Of a DNA stretch of 64,000 nt, positions 19,790 through 33,396 are shown in pieces. The stretch spans positions 220,439 through 284,438 of the forward strand of contig NW_026516721.1 of assembly GCF_025766255.1 (NCBI RefSeq). Reading direction: 5' to 3'. A program made the translations under genes and the position numbers. Each line of letters starts with the position of its first letter. Position 1 is the stretch's first letter. The stretch comes from Zychaea mexicana. Lineage: Eukaryota; Mucoromycota; Mucoromycetes; Mucorales; Lichtheimiaceae. The notes below the pieces were generated by a model, which did no database searches, was not told the origin of the DNA, and saw only the letters and a program-made list of their open reading frames with translations.

Positions 19790-20054
19790 AATCACAAGAA
19801 TCCACAAGAATCCACAAGAACCACCAAAAAAAATTAGTGACCCAGAGCAGGCAGTGACAGACGTCACAAATTTACAAGAAATCCACAAGAATCTACAAGA
19901 ATCCACAAAAACCACAAAAAAATTTGGCGACCTAGAGCAGTGTCACAAATTTATAAGAAATCCACAAGAAATCCATAAGAACCAAAAGAATGAGGCCAGC
20001 GGGGGTCCAAATTCACAAGAAATTCACAAGAACCACAAGAATTTTCCTACAGTG
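19790..20054. repeat. Right subterminal repeats of the CACTG element
   Basis: More than ten copies of ATCCACAAGA or ACCACAAGAA lie between 19795 and 20045, inverted relative to the left-end repeats. Together with the terminal CACTG they define the right end of the element. Confidence 0.8.
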
Positions 20055-20290
20055 GTTATTGCCCGGTCCCAGCGAAGCTGCAGGATCTTGTTTGCAGCCC
20101 AACTTTTCACGCACGCAGCCAAGGGTGCAAATCCTTGGCATGTGCTCTCCAAGTCTTCCCGCGCCTTCAAGGTCGTCTCTGGCATCGCTGACCAGGTCGT
20201 TTGGTGCGGATCGACATCAGGGTTGCTGAGAATGCCCTCAATAATAATCCCGGCGCTTCCCCAGACGTTGTCCCTGATGTTAACCTCATC

Positions 20291-20774
20291 GGCGCATATG
20301 CATTACCAACTATTTTCATATAAAAACTATTGGTAACAAATTTTTTGTTGGTAGCAAAAATTTAAAATGGTTGCAAATTGAACATGATCTTATGGAAAAA
20401 TATATTACGATATATAAATTTAATATAAGAAATATAGCTTATGACACCGTATTCATTGCATATCTATTTATTAAAATCCTTCAGTTTTATGATTTATAAC
20501 TCACAAAAAAGGAAATCTTTTCAATCTCCTCCTCCTTTCTTTCCTTCACAGTCTCTTTACGCGTTCGATATGTCCATCTGTCCATAACGCTTTTTCGTCG
20601 CCATGGCGACCGTGTAACCATTACAGCATTGTCTTCTAGCATTCAAACGATCAAAATGTGGCTTCACTGTTTACCTCCGACGTAGAATAAAGCTGTAAGC
20701 ACAACAGAGTGTGTAAATATTAAATACTACACAAAACTTTTTCTCTCTCTCTTTATCACAAAACATTCATCTCC
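20291..20774. other. AT-rich non-coding stretch
   Basis: I see no gene here. A short inverted motif (ATTACCAACTAT / ATAGTTTTTAT...TTGGTAAC) near 20297-20335 suggests another transposon edge, but I cannot define an element. Confidence 0.35.
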
Positions 20775-21005
20775 ATGTCAGCAAGCCACATAGAATTCTC
20801 TCCACGCCCATCCGATGAAGAAATCTTGGCAAAAGTTGAGCAGTACAGGGCGATGTGTAAGGCTTACCCAGGCAAGATTAAGGAAGGCTTAACAGACGAC
20901 TACAAGTACTTATACTTATATCCAAGAGACGTCGTGGATGAGATAGATGAAGCAATGGCAGAATTTCACGAAAACCAATGTACTTCAAAGCAAACCAAAA
21001 AGTAA
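20775..21005 (+). CDS. Small hypothetical protein, 76 aa
   Basis: A single-exon ORF opens at ATG 20775 (MSASHIEFSPRPSDEEILAK) and ends at TAA 21005. It is acidic, with the YKYLYLYPRDVVDEIDEAMAEF segment looking helical and amphipathic, and a basic Lys/Gln tail. A run of CT dinucleotides precedes the start (20740-20760) and an AATAAA lies about 20 nt after the stop, a reasonable layout for an expressed small gene. I do not recognise the family. It may be a host gene or a leftover of a neighbouring element. Confidence 0.5.
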   Translation: MSASHIEFSPRPSDEEILAKVEQYRAMCKAYPGKIKEGLTDDYKYLYLYPRDVVDEIDEAMAEFHENQCTSKQTKK

Positions 21006-21584
21006 CTTTCTGTTGATACAATAAATAAACAGTCCAAAATCGTATATATTATATATTGTTTTAAGAAAACAAGCGATACAAGTGTATTTTGGATTAAGAG
21101 AGGTAGTGTTCGGAGGGGATAGAACAGACACACCATCACATATAATTTAAAGACAGCAGTAGCTGGTCGATTCGAAGTGCGGATGCTACTAAATGCCTGT
21201 CATACATGAACAATATCAAAAAGGAAGTTGACATTGTGCTGTTCTTTCTCTTACTCTTTTTTCTCAGCTATCTCTACTGCAGTACCTCTATTTACTTTGA
21301 CTTTATTACACATAATTTTACACAGTGTACAGTAATCTTTACTTTTTTAGGCATATATCATTGTTAGACACGCCATCTCAATCTTCTAATCCTGACATTT
21401 TGACTTGCTGACATGACCTTGAGCGTTGAGAATATAAGCAAAAAGTACTTTTCAAAGAGAGTTTTGCTGCTGAGATCATAATAGTTATTGTGTGCAACAA
21501 AGAAACAAGAGCTGCACTGTATACTGCTCTTCTCTCTTCTCGCATTTCAAAACTCACTTCTAATCTTCACTTCAATCAACAAAC
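21006..21584. other. Non-coding stretch before the Helitron fragment
   Basis: I see no ORF, repeat or RNA structure with support here. CT-rich segments at 21240-21270 and 21520-21560 could be a promoter for the downstream ORF. Confidence 0.3.
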
Positions 21585-22371
21585 ATGTCAACTCCAATTT
21601 GCCCTTCATGCGGCTTGCCCGGCCATCAACGCATTTCGCACCGCAACTGTCTTCATAATCCCGCTCGGTTGCAAATACGTCAGCAAAATGAACATGAAGC
21701 TGGAATTGAAACCGAAGAACGCGTTCCTGTGTGTTCAAGCTGTGGGCAAGAGGGTCATCATCGCTCCACCAACCGATTGTGCCCAAACAATCCTGCAAAC
21801 CAGGCTGCTCAAAATGTTAGTGACCATATCTATACCAGCTATACTTGCTATTCGTTGATATATAGTCATCAGCTGTTAGAAGCTTGAGCATTCAGTATAT
21901 CAATTAATGATCCTTTACTTCATGTAGATGCATAATATCGCCCGTGCTGTTGCAGCTGTGATTCCTCCCCGGCACTATTCTGGTCGCATGGACAGGGAAT
22001 GCTCTAATTGCCATGCACGTCTTTGGATTCAAGAGCGCATCTCAAACTCTTCCCAAGTACGACCTGCATTTAGCCTATGCTGTGACCAAGGAAGTGTCCG
22101 ATTGCCACCCCTTTCCCCCACCCCTCCTGAAATTTCCCGTTTGTTGCGTGGCACGGATGAGGCCTCCACCCAATTCCGCACAAACATCCGCACATACAAC
22201 AACTCCCTCAGTTTTACTTCGCTTGGTGTCCACGTTGATCAGACAGTAGCCAACTCCATCGGTGGTGCATACAACTTCTGCATCCACAGTAGTGTCCACC
22301 ATCGAATCGGGTCTATAGAGTTGCCACAGCAATTACTTAGTAGGTCCAGTCCACTTAGTCCACCCAGGTAG
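21585..22371 (+). pseudogene. Helitron helicase-like protein, N-terminal part only
   Basis: Two exons (21585-21815, 21928-22371) join in phase. Exon 1 encodes two zinc-knuckle motifs (CPSCGLPGHQRISHRNC and CSSCGQEGHHRSTNRLC). Exon 2 has the Helitron_like_N signature: CSNCHARLWIQER, FSLCCDQGSVRLPPL, a block with FRTNIRTYNNSLSFTSLG, and the HHRIGSIELP end. In a full Helitron this precedes the HUH-type Rep nuclease and the PIF1-type helicase, which are absent: similarity stops at about 22330, where a different repeat starts. It is therefore a truncated 5' part of a rolling-circle transposon gene. Exon 1 plus exon 2 are free of stops, so the break is by truncation, not by point decay. Confidence 0.8.
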
Positions 22372-22700
22372 ACCCCAGGTGGACTCCAGAATATTTTTAA
22401 ATATTTGGCATCAGAAAAAGCCTAGGAACACGATTTATTATGATGAAAAACCTTACGTAATTAGTACATTGTGGAGATATAAGCTATTTATTGTTGAGCA
22501 TAAGGTATACTCTACCAAGTCTACCTAGTCCACCTAGGTAGACCCCAGGTGGACTCCACAATATTTTTAGATATTTGGCATCAGAAACGGCTCAGGACCA
22601 CGATTTATTATGATGAAAAACTTTACTTACTTAATACATGATAGTGATATGACAAATTTACTATTGAATATATAGTATACTCTTATGTAGACTAGGTGGA
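22336..22700. repeat. Two imperfect ~180-bp tandem units
   Basis: Two direct copies with period about 180 bp share TAGTCCACC.AGGTAGACCC, CAGGTGGACTCCA.AATATTTT, ATATTTGGCATCAGAAA and CGATTTATTATGATGAAAAA. The core contains an inverted pair (TCCACCTAGG / CAGGTGGA) that could form a hairpin. A third partial core (GTAGACTAGGTGGA) is at about 22687. The block lies exactly between the truncated Helitron and the 3' side of the recombinase-helicase gene. Confidence 0.75.
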
Positions 22701-22940
22701 TTTTGAGGTTGAATCTTTGGCCCCTTAAAGTAGTGGGATCAGTATACATGCATGTACGTTCAAATGACAATCATCATTTTTTCATCAGAATTTGAGGGAA
22801 AACATTCGACCTGAAAAATATAACAAATAGCTATATGGCAGCTTCAAGTAGTTGATTTACATTTGTATTGTATCTATTTAAATGATATCAAGTATCATTT
22901 TTTGGACAAAGGCAAACACTTAGCACTAGAACACTTTTTT

Positions 22941-25900
22941 TTATGTGTAAATCGATCTATAAAGAAGTATGATATATTTTAAAAAATAAGAGAAAAGGGG
23001 GTGGCAATCAAAGAAAGAAAAAGAGAAAATAGAGATAAGGGAGATATAGTATAATAAAAAAGAGAAGGGGAGAAGAGAAAGTATGTGTAAAGAGATAAAG
23101 AGAGGAGAGCAGAGAGGTAAATGTTTATGTAAAAAGAAGTGTGATAGAATGATATGGCCTAGATGCATGGCATTATTGGGATATGTGTGGGGGCCAGCAG
23201 CTATAAGCCAGTATGCAAAATCTTGTTGAATTTCAATTGCTTGAAGGTAACTTTCTTTGAAACCAGCTTGGCAGATAAATTGGGGCTTACGCCGATAGGC
23301 TGCCCAGCAGAGACGGTATAACAGGTCCTCATAGGTACCACTGCAGTTTGACCAGTTACCATCATGGAAGATGGTCTGGTTCCACTGGTTAGGAACAAGG
23401 CACTTTTTGCAAAAGCCCTCCCTAATTGGTTTCACACATGCTGGGTTAGAGACATAGTGGTCACCAAAGCAACGGAAACATTGACCAATATGAGAAATGC
23501 ACTGGAGAGAAGTTGTATGCTCACTTTCGGCTATGCCAAAAGTAAACAAGCAAGGTATGCAGTGATCCTTGGCTATCATCATAACTGACTTGAAGTTGTC
23601 AGCATCCGATATGTACTTTCTCTTTCGAGAAAGACCAAGATATGCGTCAATTGGTGTCGGCTAAGGAAAGGTGTATAGTTTAGTACAAAATGCTGATAGA
23701 GTAATAACAAAGATGACTTTGTAGATACGTACAATTGATGGTGGTGTGTGATCGATAATCCAATCGGTTGAGGGGCGGACAGTAGTAGAAGGAGGGAGAG
23801 GAGAATCTACAAATAGGTTGGAAGCTTAAGTGTCTAAAAATTTGAATATTAAAATGAAACTGTGTGTATACCTTTGATTTTTTGGCAATAAGAGCAAAGC
23901 TCAACATTACCATACCCAAAGCAGTTGGTAACTTGAGAGTCTAAAGACTCTGCAAGTATCTGCCGGATGCATTTTGATGCCAAAATGACATCATTAAATG
24001 CTTGCCACAGAGATAGATGCCGGTTTACCCTCTTGAGACTTTGTATCTGTCTTTTTTGGCGTTCAACGTCAACAAAGTACAGACACCGTGCACAGGAGCT
24101 ACTACGACCAGAACGACCAGTTTCTTGAGCATAATCAAGGATTGATGCAGAGCCACCGAGGTGAATCACTGTTGAGATTGTAGAGCAATCGATGCCAGCA
24201 CCAAATGCACTTGTTGCAACCATAATTTTTAGCTCACCGGAAACAAAGGCAGTTGTTCGTTTATGTTTTTCTTCTACCGAAAGATTACAGTGGAAGTAAG
24301 ATATTTGTGTAGTGTAGTACAGTAATGCTTGTTTAAGCTTGTTGCTGATAGATGTTGTTGCATCTACTGCAGAGCAGTAGATGATGGTGGATAATGGTGA
24401 TGATGATGGTGAATAATGAGCTTGTAGGTGTGATATTGCTGCAGCTTACAGATTGGTGGTGTTGATAATTTGATAACAGAGGCTTGGTCGCATTGACAGC
24501 TGTCGTATAATCAAAAGGTCTGCGCCAAACATGTCACGTAAGTCGGATTCGAATAACAGTGGAATTGTTGCGGATAAAAGAAGGAATGGAACGGTGAGTG
24601 AACAGAGGAAAAGGAGTGTATATAATGCCGGACGGAATGAATGCCATGTGATTGCTGTATGCACCTCATCAATTACGACTCAGGCTAGCTGATTATGGTC
24701 GTTGATTTGCTACACAACGTTGAGGAACCGTTGACTGCTAGCATGTTCAACTTGGACGATGATGATGTTAGGCAAGGGGTGCTGTATAGTGATATCCGGA
24801 GTATATTCTATTACAGACAACCCAGCTTGCTGAATCTGGCGTTTCATATCAGCCAAAAGTGCGACAAGTGGGACAACGACGACTGTTGTCAAATGTGACT
24901 CGACGAGTGTAAGCAAGCCAATAAGCCCACAGCAGTAATCAGGCGCGCTGTCATCTACAGCGCCGCCATCTACAGCGCCGCCATCCACCATCAAGAGCGC
25001 CTCCATCGAAGGCACCGTTAACAGCATCATAGTAGCAATATTATAGTATAACAGATATCACTGAAAACATATAAATAGCCAAGTATTTTAATAAAGAAAA
25101 AGAACAACTCAATTCACTATTCTTCTCTAGTCTCTTTTCCTTCCTTCATATATTCAATCCCCGACCAACCCATTACAACGAGTGCAGGGACTTACCAGAG
25201 CCTGTAGGTTGGATGGCAAGTATGCTAGATTCTCGGGAGATGACGGTGGTGATAAGCTATGCCTGTTCGAATGATTGGAAGGAAGGCGACAGCGAGTTAG
25301 TGGCTTTACCAAGTGCGTTAAGCAGCTATGGTGTGATGGATGTGCCTATGTAGAGAGCAATATTAATTATGATTTTACATGTAAGGATGATGAAAAAAAA
25401 GGATGTACCTTGCGGAAGTGCTGGTGGTGCTGAAGTGGTTGTTGACTGGCGCCTGTCCAAGTTGTTTTGCACTTGCAAACTGTGTTGCATCTCAAGCAAT
25501 GCCACATTCTCTGCAGCAGCCACGTTTGCCAAGAATTTACCATGCTGGGCAGCAACTTGGTCTTGTTCCGCCTGCAGAATAGCACTTGGAAAGAGATGAC
25601 ACCCAGGGCCGACACCTATAATTGACGAGTAGTGAATACATTTCAATGATAGGTTGTGAAAGTATGAGAACAAAGATAATATACCAAGAAAATCATGCCA
25701 CATTTCTGAAGCAATAAAGTACTCTTCTATTGCTACAGAGGCTCAATCCATAATAATTAATTTTACTGTAAACAGTAAATTAATTTTAGTTATGCCTCTC
25801 ACAGTCAAGCTAGCCTTCGTCCAAGTATTCCTCGGCTAGAGAGGGGACTTGCTCACTACCGTTGCGCCACTTAGAGTGTTTTAAACATAATGGTTGAGAT

Positions 25901-28900
25901 TAACCCTATTGGTTGAGAATCTTATAGTGTTTAAGAAATTATTTTTTTAATTAAAAAAATTAATTTCATGATTTATTATAAACATTTAAAAATTATATTA
26001 CTTATAATTTTTTACATATTTATAATTTCACTAAAATCATAACACTAAGGGTTACCCTCCACAGAAGAGAGTGCATTCGAGTCTGTTGTTGCCTGTGCAT
26101 AATTGTATGTGGCAGTTCTGGACGAGTGGCCTGCCTGCAGGTCTACTGTATAATTTGAGCCGTGGTATGTGAGCAAGTATTGGATGTGATAGCGTGAGAA
26201 TGCAACGGACACATGACGATAATCTTGAAAACTAAGGCGAGAAGGAAGGAGTTGATGCCAGCGGGCTTGAAAGTGTGTTCGGAGCAGGTCAGCTGACATT
26301 TTAGCACCGTTGCGTATGAAGAAGTATGCCATTGTATCAAGTATTTTTTGTTGTGAAGTTGAGCATTCATAAATGAAGAGGCTAGAGAAAAGAATAGAAT
26401 GAGACATTGCATGATAGACTTTTAAAATGTAAATACCTTTCTATAGGTCGGATGAATATGATGTAGTGGAGAAATAGGCGGATAAGATAGTGAGGAATGA
26501 AACGGGCAATTGCTTGGTCACGTTGTTTAATATTACGAGTTTTTTGGTATGTTGTGAGAAGCATCAATATTTGATGTTCGTTTGACCAATACAAGTTGCG
26601 TGTTATGTATGTTGTGTTTTGTAATAAAGTGCCTTCTAGCTCTGTAGCCCGAGCTGTTTGTCCGTATGTGAGGTGCATTAGCATGAACAAATCGCGTTGG
26701 ATTTGTTCAGCTGTGGTGATGTATGTTTTAATGGCAGATATATTGTATGTTGTACTGTTGTTTGTTATATGTTGAATATAATGACGGGATAAGTGTGGTG
26801 TAGTGTGTATATGCTGGAGGATATGACCGAATTGGTGACAGAGGTTGTTTTTTGGGTTGGTAAAGAATGAATAATTGATATCACGATTGTTGAAATCGTC
26901 ATACAGATGTATAGCTTTGTTGTTGCGGAATTCAAGAAGATTATTAAGGTCGATGTCAAATGTGAGTTTACGTATTTTCTGTTGTATAGTGGTTTTTAAA
27001 TTGTTGGCCAAGAGACGTAAATCATGTACATGAATACGCTCGTTCGTTTCGACCATGGCAAGTGACAGATGGTTGGAGTGCGGTGTCCAGACAATCTTAT
27101 CTGTGACAAACTCTGACGAGTCTGAAATGGAAGCAATGCGACTGTACTCAGCAATAGCAGCATATGCAGATGCTTTGCCATCAATCAGATACTGTTGGTA
27201 GTTTGCGGTGAAGCTAAAAAAGAGTTTGTATATGATATTGTTATATGAGTGTAAAATGGCTAATATGGAAGGCTAAAGCAAAGAACTTACACTGTAATTA
27301 AATTTTGACTAGCATAGTTTGTATATATGTTGTTGAGTAAGAGTAAACGGAACCAGTACTTGATTTGAGAAATGAATGGTGCAATAGAGGAAACGTCTTT
27401 GAATTGGCCATTGAACTGCAAGTAAGAAGCAATGACAAATCGAGCGATAGTATATCCATTCATAGCGACATCAAAAGGTTTTTCTTCTTTCAATAAAGTA
27501 ATCCACAATTTGCAAATTTGTGATTCGATCTGTGTAGCTGTTTGTGATGACAATTATGCTGGATTGACATTTGCTGATAGTGTTGCAATGTTGGTGAGGA
27601 TTGTATTGATAATTGAAGACCAAGTACCCAAAACAGAAGACCAGTGTGGTGAACGACGGATGCGAAGTAAAAAGATTAGAAGATTAGCGCCTGTTTGTGT
27701 ATAGCGTTGGATGCTAGCACGTTCGAGTTGATTAAAGCCATGATCAGGGAGAGGTTCAGAGAGCCTAAAGGGGATAGATGAATTAGAGTAGATGATTGAC
27801 GAAAAGAAGATGATTTGAACACTTACTTTTTCTGTTTGAGATAGCGACGCAATGTATAATCTTTCTCATGAACAGAATTGTGTAAACGAACAAAAAGCTG
27901 CTTGTTAACCTTGGCGACTACTTTAAGTATATTTTCCTCTACGTGTATTTTCTTTGTCAAGTCATATAGAGTGAGAGGGATGTTTCTTGACGTATTGGTA
28001 GGATGTTGTTGTTGGTGTTGGCTATGCGCTATTAAGAGAATGGTGAATACACAGACGATGCTATAAATGTAGTATAGCTACTAATATAAAATGATAACTA
28101 CCTGTTTTCCACTCCTCGACAATGTCATACCACTTGGTATGGACGAAAAACCAAGGGATTTGTTTATTGTTGGTGTTGACATTTGAGGTTGGGCCAAAGG
28201 CAGGTTCCAAGCGAGTAAAAGCATCTGCAATAGGTAGATGATTACTTAAAGATGCTACATTTAAAGCAGGTACAGTGACAGTAGGTTGTTCTGTTGGGGC
28301 AGGCAAAGGTAAATTACAGTTTCTACAGTGGCGCTGTATTACTTGAAAGTTGGTAGACTTGAAGCCACAACGGCAATGCACATAGTGCTTGGTATCTACA
28401 AGAAGTGTAGTTACTTTTCCTATAAAGTGATTAGTACTTCAATGTAATATAAATGGTAGATGGTATAGGAAAGATACACACCATGATCGTTTGGATATTT
28501 AATATTAACTTTTTTTTGGTGCATTTTCCGAATGTGTCACTTACGAGCAGATTTTGAAGAAAAATATAAATTATACTCTTCAATTCCACAAAGAACACCA
28601 GAATGCTGTGTTGGCTGGGAAGTACCAGGCTCTATACTGTTGCTTTCACTACGCTGTTGTTGCTAGATTCACTCTCTGAACCACTAGATATTGAGGAATG
28701 TGCTGAACGACTAGGGTTATAGTCACTGCCGCTATTGGGTATGTTTGCATCAATGATTGTTTTATGTGGACTATGGGTAAAGGATGATGTTGATGAAGGC
28801 AGAGCTGATTGGCGATGAGATGCCTGGGTAGAAAGTGGTATAGATGAGATCACAGGAGCAGGACGTCTTTTGAAAACTATGTAGATGTAAAAAATTAGAG

Positions 28901-29690
28901 ATTGTAAAAGAGTAAAAAGACTATGGATACATACTTTTGCTTAGAGTACCTGGTTTGCGATTATCTGAAGTGTTTTAAAAGTTTGACGATTGAATTATTT
29001 TTAGTAAGTAGAAAATGATAGTGTGAATACTTTTATAAATAAATGATAAGTTTACCTTAACTGATATCTGAACACTCTAAAATTGCGATTGAAGACTTTT
29101 GGGTTGATTGCAATACCGGTTGCTGTGTACGTACAGCACTGGGCTGAGCCCGGAACTTTCCTTTTTCCAAGGCTGAGTGACGAGGAGCGACTAGCGGCTG
29201 GTTTGTACATGCACCAGAGATACTAGAACGAGCATTTCCTACTGGAGAGCTTGATTCTACAACCTTTCTCTTTTTCAATAAAGGAGGGGAAGCAGCCTTT
29301 GGAGCTAAAAAAAGAAGTGCATTTTTATTTTCAGAGAATGAGATGTAAAACGTAAAACAAAGTGAGAGAGCAACAATAATTACGAGAAGCAGCCTCTTGG
29401 GAATCGTCCCAGATAAAATCCGAAGGAAGACTTTCCAAGGAGTTTCTACGTTCCAGACGAGGTGCACAGTTACCCTGATTAACAGGGGCCAGAGCTACGG
29501 CCGGAGAAGCTAACAAGGGAGACGATTGGGCAGCAGGCAAAGCAGGGAAAGGCTCTTGCTGCGGCAGCGAAGGCGAAGGCAAAACCGAGTCCTCAACACG
29601 CAACTGGCTGTTACCAGTGACGAACGACTTGGCAAACGAAGCCCACGAGTGGACCTTTGAAGCATAAGAGCTAGAGTTGTTGGCAGACAT
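22941..29690 (-). pseudogene. Zinc finger-tyrosine recombinase-RecQ helicase fusion
   Basis: A single long minus-strand gene of many exons, ATG at 29690. In order I see: a Ser/Pro-rich N-terminus; an SV40-like basic signal LLKKRKVVE (about 29260); a Cys/His finger HCRCGFKSTNFQVIQRHCRNC (28381-28316); a helical region (27835-27070); and a tyrosine-recombinase domain with box I Arg in GQTARATELEG (Arg codon 26649-26651), Lys in TYQKTRN (26541-26543), QDYRH (Arg 26216-26218, the usual His replaced by Gln), AGHSS (His 26126-26128) and TYNYA (Tyr 26099-26101). After a linker comes a RecQ-type helicase: QPTGSGKS (about 25195-25212), VVVPLVALLADMKRQ, IDEVH (about 24670), LLSATIP, VATSAFGAGID and QETGRSGR (about 24100). 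A Cys-rich C-terminus follows (CFRCFGDHY). Several in-frame stops (for example TAA about 27555) and a frameshift near 28630 mark decay. Known helicases of this type are dispersed in fungal genomes; the recombinase reading is my inference from motif order. Confidence 0.78.
25740..26044. repeat. AT-rich insert with a tRNA-like A box inside the fusion gene
   Basis: Between the recombinase and linker exons lies a block not explained by a normal-size intron. It has an AT-rich inverted repeat at one side (AATTTTACTGTAAACAGTAAATT, 25753-25775). On the minus strand it carries a GTGGCGCAACGGTAGTGAGC stretch that fits a tRNA A box, with only a poor B-box match 35 nt later. The other side is a long AT tail. 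It could be a degraded tRNA-derived SINE or simply a long intron. The recombinase exon ends at TAG 26045, just outside it. Confidence 0.35.
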
Positions 29691-30005
29691 ATTTGATTTT
29701 TTAAAAAAAGGGGTTCTTGAAAAAGCTATTGTTAAATGATTAGTATAAGTATTTACATTGGAATCACATAAACAAATAAAGGGAAAAGATGATTTTCAAA
29801 TAATTGCTAAAGAGTGAAAATGTAACTGAATGGCAGAAATCGAAAGAGAGGGGAAAAATCCACCTAAATGACCTAAAAGGAAAGAAGGGAGAAAAATCTA
29901 CCAAAAGAACAGAAAAGGAAAAAGAGGGAAAACTTGGGTGACCGTGACTGCTTCTCCTCGAAAGTGACTGTTTTTGCTCAACTACTATATATAGAAAGGT
30001 AGGTG
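29691..30005. promoter_or_regulatory. Upstream region of the fusion gene
   Basis: A purine-rich stretch (AAAGAGAGGGGAAAAA and similar; CT-rich on the sense strand) lies directly upstream of ATG 29690. Long CT-rich tracts are common in fungal promoters. I see no clear TATA box. Confidence 0.35.
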
Positions 30006-30660
30006 CAAAAGTGGTCAAGGCATCAGCTTTAGACCCAAAAGATCGAGAGTTCTAATCCATCAGCAACCAATATGTATAAACCTCATTTCTGGCTTACCTA
30101 AATGTTTCTAGAGTGTGGGAAAAAAAATTACATATAGAGTCACATATAAGCAATAGTCTCAGCTAGAAAGAAGGCCAGATTTGTAAAAAAATTTGTTACT
30201 TATTTTTATGTTAGGAGACTTATTGGAATCTTTCAGATTCTCAATTAAGTCTAAATAACAACCTACTGGTTGTTTAGGATTGATTTCATCAAAGTTAAGA
30301 CCTCTTCAAAAAAATCAAAGTTTTTTTATCAGACCCCCCCAGTATTAGGAATCAAACTATCGATTCGATTTTAACAAATAGAATAAAATAAAAAAAAATA
30401 AGATTTATTTTTTTAGATTTTAATATCTTAATGATTAATAGATTTCTTAATTTCATTAGAAATCTTATTATTATAAGATATTCGATGAGTCTTCTTATTA
30501 TAAATATATATAAGATAGAAATAATAGAGTGATATTTATAAAAGAGTAAAATATAGAATAGATAAGATAGAAAAGGGTTTGCAAGGTAGCATAAGTAAAG
30601 AGAGAATGAAAAGGAGGAAGGAATAAAAGTAGAGAAAAAGAGAGAAGAAGGGAAGGAAAA
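30006..30660 (+). repeat. tRNA-like head plus AT-rich tail (possible SINE)
   Basis: At 30009-30062 the sequence AGTGGTCAAGGCATCAGC, then about 20 nt later GAGTTCTAATCC, fits tRNA A- and B-box patterns with one or two mismatches and tRNA-like spacing. The following ~580 bp is AT-rich with no ORF, a small inverted repeat (CAACCTACTGGTTG, 30259-30272) and a C-run at 30343. It resembles a tRNA-headed SINE, different from the pair at 40436 and 60830. A degenerate tRNA gene cannot be excluded. Confidence 0.35.
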
Positions 30661-30699
30661 TAAGGCTAATCTTCTATATTAACTTCCTCATTACTACTA

Positions 30700-31200
30700 T
30701 TTTAAACCTCATCACTAATAAAAGTAATAATATTATTATTACTTATTTGTTGTACTTGTTATGCTTGTTGCTGATGTTGTTGTATATATAGCTGATTTAG
30801 CTAAAAATCAACTGCCATTGCTGCTGTAAGAGCTGTTGCTGTTGTTGGACCTGTTGGTCTTTTTGCTCTAATTCCGATTGCAGCTGTGTTATTTGCTGTT
30901 GTTGTTGTTGCTGTAAAAGCTGCTGCATCTATAAGTGTTGTTGCTGTTGCCTTTGCTCTTGCTGCTCATACTGCTGTTGTGACTGGCGTTGTTGCTGTCT
31001 ATGTTGTTGTTGTTGTTGTTGCTCGCGTTCTTGTTGTTGTTGCTGCTCTTACTGCCGTCTCCTTTCATCCCGATGCTCTATATGCTGTAGGACCCTTTGT
31101 CTTTGCAGATTAAGAAGGGCCCTATTTTGCTGTTCTTGTTGCTGTTGATCTTCTTCTGCTTCTTCTACTTCTTCTCTTTCCTCTTCAAGGGGGTATGTAC
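30700..31200 (-). pseudogene. Gln-rich coding relic
   Basis: On the minus strand one frame from about 31190 to 30800 encodes an acidic start followed by very Gln-rich sequence (RRRQ, EQQQQQERE, QQQQYEQQEQRQQ, MQQLLQ) with only two interruptions, TAA at a CAA-like position and TAG at a CAG-like position. No start codon or folded domain is visible. It may be the coiled-coil tail of a transposon accessory gene, as in the Harbinger Myb-like proteins nearby, but it may also be simple CTG-repeat DNA. Confidence 0.35.
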
Positions 31201-31590
31201 TCTAGTTGTGATATTTCATAAAAATTAAGAGTTACAAATTTTTTAGGAGTTATAAAAATTCTTTATATAGTGCCTGCCACCTAGAAACAACAAGTGGACA
31301 TTTCAAAAATTTAAGATTCCGCCTTTATAAATTTCCATTTTTAGTTAAGTGATATTTATTCATCGAAAATTTGCTAGTGGGACTTATATTTTTTCTGCTT
31401 TTCATCCAGTGAGTCCTTTCTCAGAGGATGACTTACAGTGGACCCCCTTTAATGTCAACCCTCAAGTATAGCTGAAAGTGTTGACGCTAACGGGGGTTGA
31501 CGTTAAAGGGGGTGGACTATTTAGGAACAAAGTTTAACTGTATAATAAAAGTTTTGAACCAGCGCACCCCGACACACTGTAGTACCGTAC

Positions 31591-31600
31591 TGTATATAAA
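31591..31600 (+). promoter_or_regulatory. Possible TATA box of the pogo transposase
   Basis: TGTATATAAA lies 34 bp before the ATG at 31634, inside the element, a position that would suit a core promoter. Confidence 0.35.
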
Positions 31601-31633
31601 GAATAACTTCTGGAAGATTGAAATGTTGTCAAA

Positions 31634-33396
31634 ATGTCTAGCTCTACTTCAACTACCACACTATGTGAGTACGTCTCCTTCACTAACGAGCAATGCGATC
31701 TGATTGTTGCTTACAAGAGCTCGAAGAAGGGCATTACACTGCAGATGGCGGCAGAGTATGCCAAAAAGGAGTTTCGCTTGAGTAAGGTCCCTAGCAAGAG
31801 CACTATCTCCAAAATTATCAAGCAAAAATCCACCGAAGCTCCTGGTGACGAAAGGGACGCCAAAAGGATGCGCAATAGAAAAGGACAATATCCTGTAAGT
31901 ATGAGTATATAGTATATATATAGCAGTAGTAATATATATTTGATTGAACTGTACTGATAGCTATTGTTTCTCTTCGTCTATCTGAAATGATGTTCCATAT
32001 ATAGCAAGTTGAAGAAGCGGTGTTGCTTTGGATTAACTGTGCACAAAAAAATAAAATCTAGATAACCTGGGACCTGATTCAAACGAAGGCCCGGAACTTT
32101 GCAGAATTGATTGGAATTCAAGCATTCAAGGCATCAAATGGCTGGGCGGACCGATTCTCAAGGAGATATGGGCTAAGTGCACATAGCATCCATGGAGAAG
32201 CGCAATCAGCAGACCTTGATGCCCTTGAAGCACAGAGGGATACTATCCATGCCAAGCTTGAACGATATAAGAAACAAGATATCTATAATCTTGATGAAAC
32301 CAGCTTGTTTTATCGCTTGGAGCCGAAGACAACAATTAGGACTCAAGGGTTCAGCGGCAGAAAACAAGACAAGACAAGACTCTCAGTCGCGCTTCTTTGC
32401 AATGCAGATGGTAGTGATAAATGGGTTGATCCCATTATCATTGGTCATGCTGTATGTCCAGACTCGTTCAAGGTTGATAAAAAACACAAGGATGCTGCCT
32501 TTCATGGCTTCAAGCAATACTTCGTCAATCAGAAGGCTTGGATGACTAGAAAGTGTTTCCGAGAGATTCTGAGAAAATTCGATCGAGCCATGGGTGCCAG
32601 GAAGAGAAAAGTGATCTTGCTACTAGACAACTTTTCTGGACATTATGTCAATTATGAACCTGTCAACGTTGAGCTTTTGTTCTTGCCTCCCAACACGACA
32701 TCCGTGATCCAACCTCTCGATGGGGGGATTATTCGGTCGTTTAAGGCACAGTACAAACGACGACAGCTGGAAAAGGCGTATCGTTCTATTGGAATGATCC
32801 AAAACGCGAATGGTCAAGTTGTGGGCCCCGCTGAAAAAGTTTTCATTGTCAATCAACTACAAGCGATGAGGTGGATTCAAGCGGCATGGACGGCAGTAAC
32901 CGCCGAAACAATCCAAAACTGTTTCCAAGCTACGATCTTCAAGTATTTAGGAGAAGGAGATAGTCTTGCTGCTACTGAAGTTGCCCAAGCAGAGGAGACA
33001 GACAGATGGGAGTTGGAGGCTCAAGTTCAACAGCTTACTTCTACTGGAGCTGTCAACCGTGATCAATGTCCTGATGTCAACCTTGATCCTGAGTATGAGC
33101 GCAACGTATACCTTGCATCACTTACAGAACAAGAAATCGTTGAGGAGGTGACAGCTGTTGCTGAAACAAGTGTAGAAGAGGTTGTTGTTGAAGAGGAGGA
33201 AGAAAAGGAATTGACGGCTAAAGAGAAATCTGAATGTATCAATACTTTTCTTGATATTTTGGATAGGGAGGAGGAACTCCATGACGCAGTAGTACATGCC
33301 ATACCTCAAATCCAATTAATTCGAAATAGATATCAAAAGGCAATGTATGCTACGCAATCATCTCTGACAAAATATTTTCAACCAACGACAGAATAA
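31634..33396 (+). pseudogene. Pogo/Tigger transposase (DDE_1 type)
   Basis: Two exons, 31634-31894 and 32005-33396, join in phase across a 110-nt GT-AG intron. Exon 1 encodes a helix-turn-helix DNA-binding domain (FTNEQCDLIVAYKSSKKGIT, later SKSTISKIIKQ). Exon 2 begins the CENP-B-like second HTH and then the catalytic core: YNLDETSLFYR (first Asp), VILLLDNFSGHY (second Asp) and PPNTTSVIQPLDGGIIRSFK (third Asp). The C-terminus is acidic (VEEVVVEEEEEKE). One in-frame TAG lies at 32059-32061, shortly after the intron. Apart from that the frame is open for about 550 codons, so inactivation is recent or the stop is read through. The role is cut-and-paste transposition into TA. Confidence 0.88.

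Follow-up and report, generated by a model that had tools for sequence, protein, structure and literature searches.

We study a gene in the genome of the fungus Zychaea mexicana that joins a tyrosine recombinase (YR) domain to a RecQ-type helicase. The stretch of DNA analysed (the window) is 64,000 nucleotides long (contig NW_026516721.1, positions 220,439 to 284,438), and the gene lies on its minus strand, running from an ATG at 29690 to the end of the last open frame at 22941 when exon borders are taken from the paralogue C72. With these borders all 12 mapped introns of the window copy, too, are of the GT-AG type. An earlier note on this DNA had reported here, in one gene, the motifs ARATEL, QKT, QDYRH, AGHSS and TYNYA, followed by RecQ motifs. 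Read codon by codon, all of them are found on the minus strand (Table 1), including the Gln that replaces the His of HxxR, and the recombinase segment that had been placed at 26045-27200 is about right, being made up of exon 8 (27213-26437) and of exon 9 from 26381 on. That both domains belong to one gene does not literally hold for the window copy, which is a dead copy: its reading frame meets a first stop just past residue 184, its exon 4 is shorter than that of C72, and exons 9 and 11 are broken by insertions (26060-25740 and 25174-24910).

The same claim does hold for an intact paralogue, C145. Among six copies read, C145 reads through to give a protein of 1714 aa across 12 GT-AG introns of 55-80 bases; C72 is open to 1584 aa and departs in the last exon, C171 and C178 contain stops as the window copy does, and C149 is without a start. 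The C145 protein carries the recombinase residues R843, K879, R969, H999 and Y1008, then a Walker A motif from residue 1152 and DEVH from 1246. Its Pfam matches to DEAD (5.3e-17) and Helicase_C (8.2e-15) make up a RecQ-type helicase core, and ahead of these domains no Pfam match exceeds the cut-off. Because the intact C145 carries both domains, we find that recombinase and RecQ-type helicase are fused in a single gene. The zinc-finger motif of exon 4 matches Pfam below threshold (E 0.097). A window exon compared with a phage collection gave no match, and neither did a scan for tRNA-type genes (ARAGORN, 20000-32000) or a search of the window against Rfam.

Table 1. The recombinase-RecQ unit and adjoining features in the window.
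Feature	Position	Strand	Basis or detail
Decayed 13-exon gene: zinc-finger-like N-terminal part (by eye), YR domain, RecQ-type helicase, Cys-rich C-terminal part	22941..29690	-	exon borders aligned from paralogue C72
Exon 4, C2H2-like motif in paralogues (by eye)	28482..28876	-	alignment to C72; one base shorter than C72
Exon 5, second Cys/His motif CRCGFK...HC..C (by eye)	28102..28419	-	
Exon 8, YR domain: Arg-I (ARATEL) 26651-26649, Lys (QKT) 26543-26541	26437..27213	-	codon check; conserved in alignment A5
Exon 9, first part, YR domain: Gln 26227-26225 and Arg-II 26218-26216 (QDYRH), GH (AGHSS) 26131-26126, Tyr (TYNYA) 26101-26099	26061..26381	-	codon check
Insertion in exon 9	25740..26060	.	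alignment; not in five aligned paralogues
Exon 11, RecQ-type helicase: Walker A QPTGSGKS 25211-25188, DEVH 24670-24659; broken by stops and insertion	23872..25345	-	Helicase_C E 2.4e-14; motifs codon by codon
Insertion in exon 11	24910..25174	.	alignment; not in five aligned paralogues
170-bp tandem repeats near 3' end	22348..22683	-	2.0 copies; 3.7 and 5.2 in other copies
3' terminal motif of repeated unit, CCTACTAAGTAATTGCTGTGGCAACTCTATA	22314..22344	-	
Part of another repeated gene, interrupted where the YR-RecQ unit has its 3' end; CCHC-like motifs, resembles a Helitron by eye	21900..22316 (about 21430-22371)	+	
Remnant of pyrimidine-rich minisatellite, 5' side, unit about 38 bp	29834..29932	-	

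Catalytic site and fold of the recombinase domain

All five recombinase residues (Arg-I, Lys, Arg-II, the His of GH, and Tyr) occur in this order in the window copy and in C145. The Tyr is the 9th residue past the GH His. The sequences of E. coli XerD and lambda Int show the same distance, which bears out the tyrosine-recombinase spacing claimed at the outset. In the YR alignment A5 (which is without P0002, P0004 and P0006, and whose column numbers are those of its first row), Arg-I, Arg-II, GH and Tyr are present in 10 of 10 rows and Lys in 9, so that the R-K-R-H-Y set whose absence from intact paralogues would have told against the earlier note is there in C145 and, save for one Lys, throughout the alignment. 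The invariant columns include G185, R189, E192, R206, P257, R315, Q342-H345 and Y354, with K225 and H316 nearly so; the most conserved columns coincide with the motif residues. Sequences that share no more than 19-41% identity with the YR region of C145 still have these residues in this order, which argues that the motif set is not chance.

At the position of the HxxR His, 12 of 12 aligned sequences have Q, S, L or R and not the His (or Lys) that serves as a criterion for the tyrosine recombinase superfamily. This replacement, together with the Lys that is missing from the relative P0018, is what one would see if the domain had lost catalysis and bound DNA only, with the helicase doing the work or other elements moving the copies. 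Type IB topoisomerases, however, lack the HxxR His and work without it, using an Arg-Lys-Arg-His-Tyr pentad. Moreover, the invariance of Arg-I, Arg-II, GH and Tyr at such low identity, and the strong purifying selection described below, speak against a dead domain, which we regard as improbable; as far as conservation can tell, the site is very likely of the working type.

Ratios of nonsynonymous to synonymous substitution (dN/dS) show strong purifying selection on the YR exon as estimated from 11 copies and the window (a twelfth copy, L020, was too short for the length limit): the median is 0.094 at a median dS of 0.47, with a range of 0.05-0.53 (65 of 66 pairs among 12 sequences, taking pairs with dS above 0.03). 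For the helicase exon the median is 0.164 and the range 0.05-0.76 (89 of 91 pairs), in a set of 13 loci plus the window in which L039 is the window copy itself and so is counted twice. Inserted bases were dropped and decayed copies kept in these tests.

For the fold we turned to a predicted model of the relative P0004, chosen since it has only the start of a helicase; a model of P0008 matched helicases and gave no test of the YR domain. Using VIA-align, the P0004 model matches the tyrosine recombinase / type IB topoisomerase fold, the sixteen best rows all belonging to this one superfamily and covering the motif-bearing region (the row in rank 2, XerA, has an rmsd of 18.5 and was given no weight). 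A YR fold is thus well supported in the predicted structure of this relative.

Copies, relatives and the repeated unit

A search of the genome with the recombinase exon returned at least 50 rows. By our own count from this search there are, besides the window, at least 19 near loci (78-94%) and at least 20 remote loci (24-42%); among the matches listed, 17 of 20 near loci, counting the window, and 14 of 20 remote ones are followed downstream by a match to the helicase exon. The genome also contains 13 matches to Phage_integrase (PF00589; C190, C273, C89, C305, C223, C265 and others), some of them in open frames that are about 1280 codons long. Judged from open frame and motifs by eye, these are likely DIRS-type retrotransposons, separate from the YR-RecQ family.

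The copies share a sharp 3' end, ...GGCAAYTCTATA, which follows 170-bp tandem units of varying number. Allowing up to 3 mismatches, this 31-base end is matched 31 times in the genome, 20 of the matches being exact to a degenerate pattern, and a backward control has 0. Beyond this end the DNA differs among the window, C171, C149, C145, C178 and C287. In the window, the 3' end is followed by ATAGACCCG..., which is part of another repeated gene that is uninterrupted at eight other places; six of these eight loci were compared, and their match to the window is confined to the 3' side of the unit. Pfam gave no match to this interrupted gene, and its likeness to Helitrons was judged by eye and recall. 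In C171 and C178, TTGCCGTGGCAA near the 3' end forms an inverted repeat (5+2+5), which has a mismatch in the other copies. These results show that the gene belongs to a unit that is repeated and dispersed in the genome and whose copies end sharply at the same 3' point.

On the 5' side the homology of the window to four paralogues begins at 29934, and pyrimidine-rich minisatellites lie on this side of the copies. An apparent 5' junction in C171 was rejected, as it is the end of another repeat; the DNA upstream of the point where that repeat cuts C171 is common to eight copies. In C72, C67, C33 and C287 the upstream DNA comes in two pieces about 0.2 to 15 kb apart, with query ranges overlapping by some 3-10 bases, as if other elements had inserted with short duplications. 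Elsewhere in the window, 32062-33396 on the plus strand holds a 444-aa open frame with matches to DDE_1 (1.1e-36) and HTH_Tnp_Tc5 (5.4e-9), an apparently uninterrupted transposase of the pogo/Tc5 type.

Searches of protein databases gave 29 proteins, 10 of which have the YR motif set: P0001, P0002 and P0004 from Ceratobasidium sp. 392, P0005 and P0006 from Ceratobasidium AG-Ba, P0018 from Aspergillus thermomutatus, and P0003, P0007, P0008 and P0009. Helicase domains over the Pfam cut-off follow the YR domain in P0001-P0003, P0005 and P0007-P0009; P0004 has the helicase start only, and P0006 has no helicase domain over the cut-off. A scan of prokaryotes with P0008 gave 49 pattern matches and no relative. 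In trees of 10 sequences made separately from the YR domain and from the helicase (L036 and P0005 with partial helicases; C72 left out, its Arg-I motif differing by one residue), the Ceratobasidium group is kept in both and the sequences of Z. mexicana split from the rest with supports of 92 and 75, whereas P0009, P0003/P0008 and L062 are placed differently. The two trees fit a single old fusion, without proving it.

A mobile element or a chromosome-end gene family

We read the gene, with a probability of roughly 0.6, as the gene that codes for the protein of a dispersed, repeated element, one protein carrying zinc-finger-like N-terminal motifs, a YR domain and a RecQ-type helicase. By analogy with other YR elements, the recombinase would cut both the element end and the target by way of a 3'-phosphotyrosine and exchange strands, the helicase would open or process DNA at the junction, and the zinc-finger-like motifs may bind the element ends. 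The element is probably mobile. Of the single-protein mobile system first proposed for this locus, the repeated dispersed unit with its sharp 3' end is observed; that one protein moves its own DNA is what we infer.

Several results weigh against this reading. Foldseek alone gave 0 of 106 matches at E <= 0.001, so that the fold check set beforehand succeeded with VIA-align and not with Foldseek, and the segment with the Tyr was modelled at pLDDT under 50. No sequence profile search (Pfam, PHROGs, profile against PDB sequences) recognised a recombinase in the YR domain; sub-threshold Pfam matches to the Aladin propeller and Arterivirus GP4 were taken as chance. P0018 (CDV56_100197), which may be a truncated or a stand-alone relative, has a YR-like domain without the Lys and without a helicase domain. 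Of the interrupted repeat, the window lacks the other half, and as it stands shows no clean insertion. The 5' end of the unit was not reached in the copies compared, in which no target-site duplication or attachment-site pair was found, because this end lies in or beyond satellite DNA. Finally, satellite-like repeats upstream of C145 (L093, C145:8850-11850) recur in contigs with other subfamilies (C42, C153, C158, C222, C149 and others), and are perhaps subtelomeric or centromeric.

The silence of the profiles and of Foldseek is what would be expected if the YR likeness had arisen by chance, as a series of motifs in some unrelated fold. Comparison by hhalign with XerD, lambda Int and the DIRS-type YRs of this genome likewise gave no significant match, although neither did the positive control, in which the DIRS-type YRs were set against XerD and lambda Int. 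Against this stand the single superfamily that fills the sixteen best VIA-align rows over the motif region and the conserved columns that fall on the motif residues, and we consider chance very improbable.

The recurring satellites bear on the rival to which we give most weight, while still thinking it unlikely: a gene family of chromosome ends or heterochromatin that is no transposon, whose protein would act on repeats or ends by resolving, amplifying or protecting them, much as a telomere resolvase does or as a type IB topoisomerase would when coupled to RecQ. Its copies would spread from one satellite-rich region to another through ectopic recombination and gene conversion. Such a family would agree with a residue set that, lacking the HxxR His, is the pentad of type IB topoisomerases, with the presence of these enzymes among the structural matches and with the protelomerase TelK in Foldseek rank 10 (not significant). 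P0005 and P0006, moreover, bear the database name 'ATP-dependent DNA helicase tlh2', and multicopy RecQ-like helicase families near telomeres are described, in the portions of the papers available to us, from Ustilago (PMC10532341), Fusarium (PMC12857005), Mycosphaerella (PMC4522978) and, with DUF3505, Colletotrichum (PMC5576322). What this rival does not lead one to expect is a sharp 3' end common to the copies and followed by different DNA, once inside another repeated gene; in this assembly (TTAGGG)3 occurs nowhere, and any link to telomeres is hypothetical, the surroundings being repeat-rich.

Known systems and what the fusion may mean

As a gene type it is not entirely new, since it resembles the RecQ-like telomere-linked helicases (TLH) of fungi, from which the relatives P0005 and P0006 take their tlh2 label. 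TLH genes (for example Ustilago UTASa) are multicopy, with DEAD and Helicase_C domains and often DUF3505/OrsD, and the present gene is likewise multicopy with both helicase domains; the available portions of the TLH literature (PMC10532341, PMC12857005, PMC5576322, PMC4522978) mention no YR domain. OrsD/DUF3505 matches here are sub-threshold in P0018 (E 0.04, at the C-terminal end) and P0004 (E 0.46), and C145 has none. More tentatively, and at somewhat less than even odds, the fungal RecQ-like TLH families may at least in part be a separate class of eukaryotic YR transposons with recombinase and helicase in a single protein, the YR domain having gone unnoticed since no sequence profile sees it, and the clustering in repeat-rich chromosome-end regions coming from the element's own targeting and not from a host telomere function.

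A transposase and a RecQ helicase also share one element in KolobokH and AcademH. The Academ transposase is a DDD/E enzyme, and it is in having a tyrosine recombinase in place of a DDD/E transposase that the present gene differs from both. Cryptons, Starships and DIRS elements use a tyrosine recombinase as the joining enzyme; they differ in that the helicase is fused here and in that there is no match to DUF3435 or other YR Pfam models, and Cryptons, to our knowledge, lack a helicase. Type IB topoisomerases and bacterial telomere resolvases have the same catalytic fold class, the former with the residue set that lacks the HxxR His; we know of no RecQ fusion in either, and neither are repeated elements. 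In the available text of the sources, KolobokH has its RecQ helicase downstream of a transposase of the DDD/E type and is found in fungi only (PMC9587614), Academ and AcademH carry a RecQ helicase (PMC3627910, PMC10799480), and YR elements have no terminal inverted repeats and no target duplications (PMC3627910).

Two candidate classes were rejected: a DDD/E element, as C145 has no DDE Pfam match at E <= 1 and the fold is YR-like, and a Starship, as neither C145 nor the 10 YR rows match DUF3435 at E <= 1. A genome search for the Starship captain family gave 0 matches, but also none in 14 control genomes. No open-access paper was found, in the text available, that describes a YR in front of RecQ, which is weak evidence of absence given that most subscription papers and preprints were outside the scope; open-access papers that name both treat DDD/E or other elements. 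The earlier note, whose author knew of no described transposon class with this architecture, is qualified by the TLH likeness and by the DDD/E precedents of KolobokH and AcademH. What is new here is a variant that joins known kinds, the YR element and the transposase plus RecQ.

The portions of the literature available to us do not settle for what reason many fungi maintain RecQ-like helicase genes in multiple copies close to their chromosome ends, or by what route such genes spread. A conserved, apparently catalytic recombinase in the same protein predicts either self-mobilisation or site-specific processing of chromosome ends. A tyrosine recombinase with RecQ would be an independent solution beside the DDD/E transposase with RecQ of KolobokH and AcademH and, if active, the recombinase-RecQ element would be a class of its own. 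Our results suggest that some of the puzzling multicopy helicase genes of fungi may be mobile elements that bring their own recombinase.
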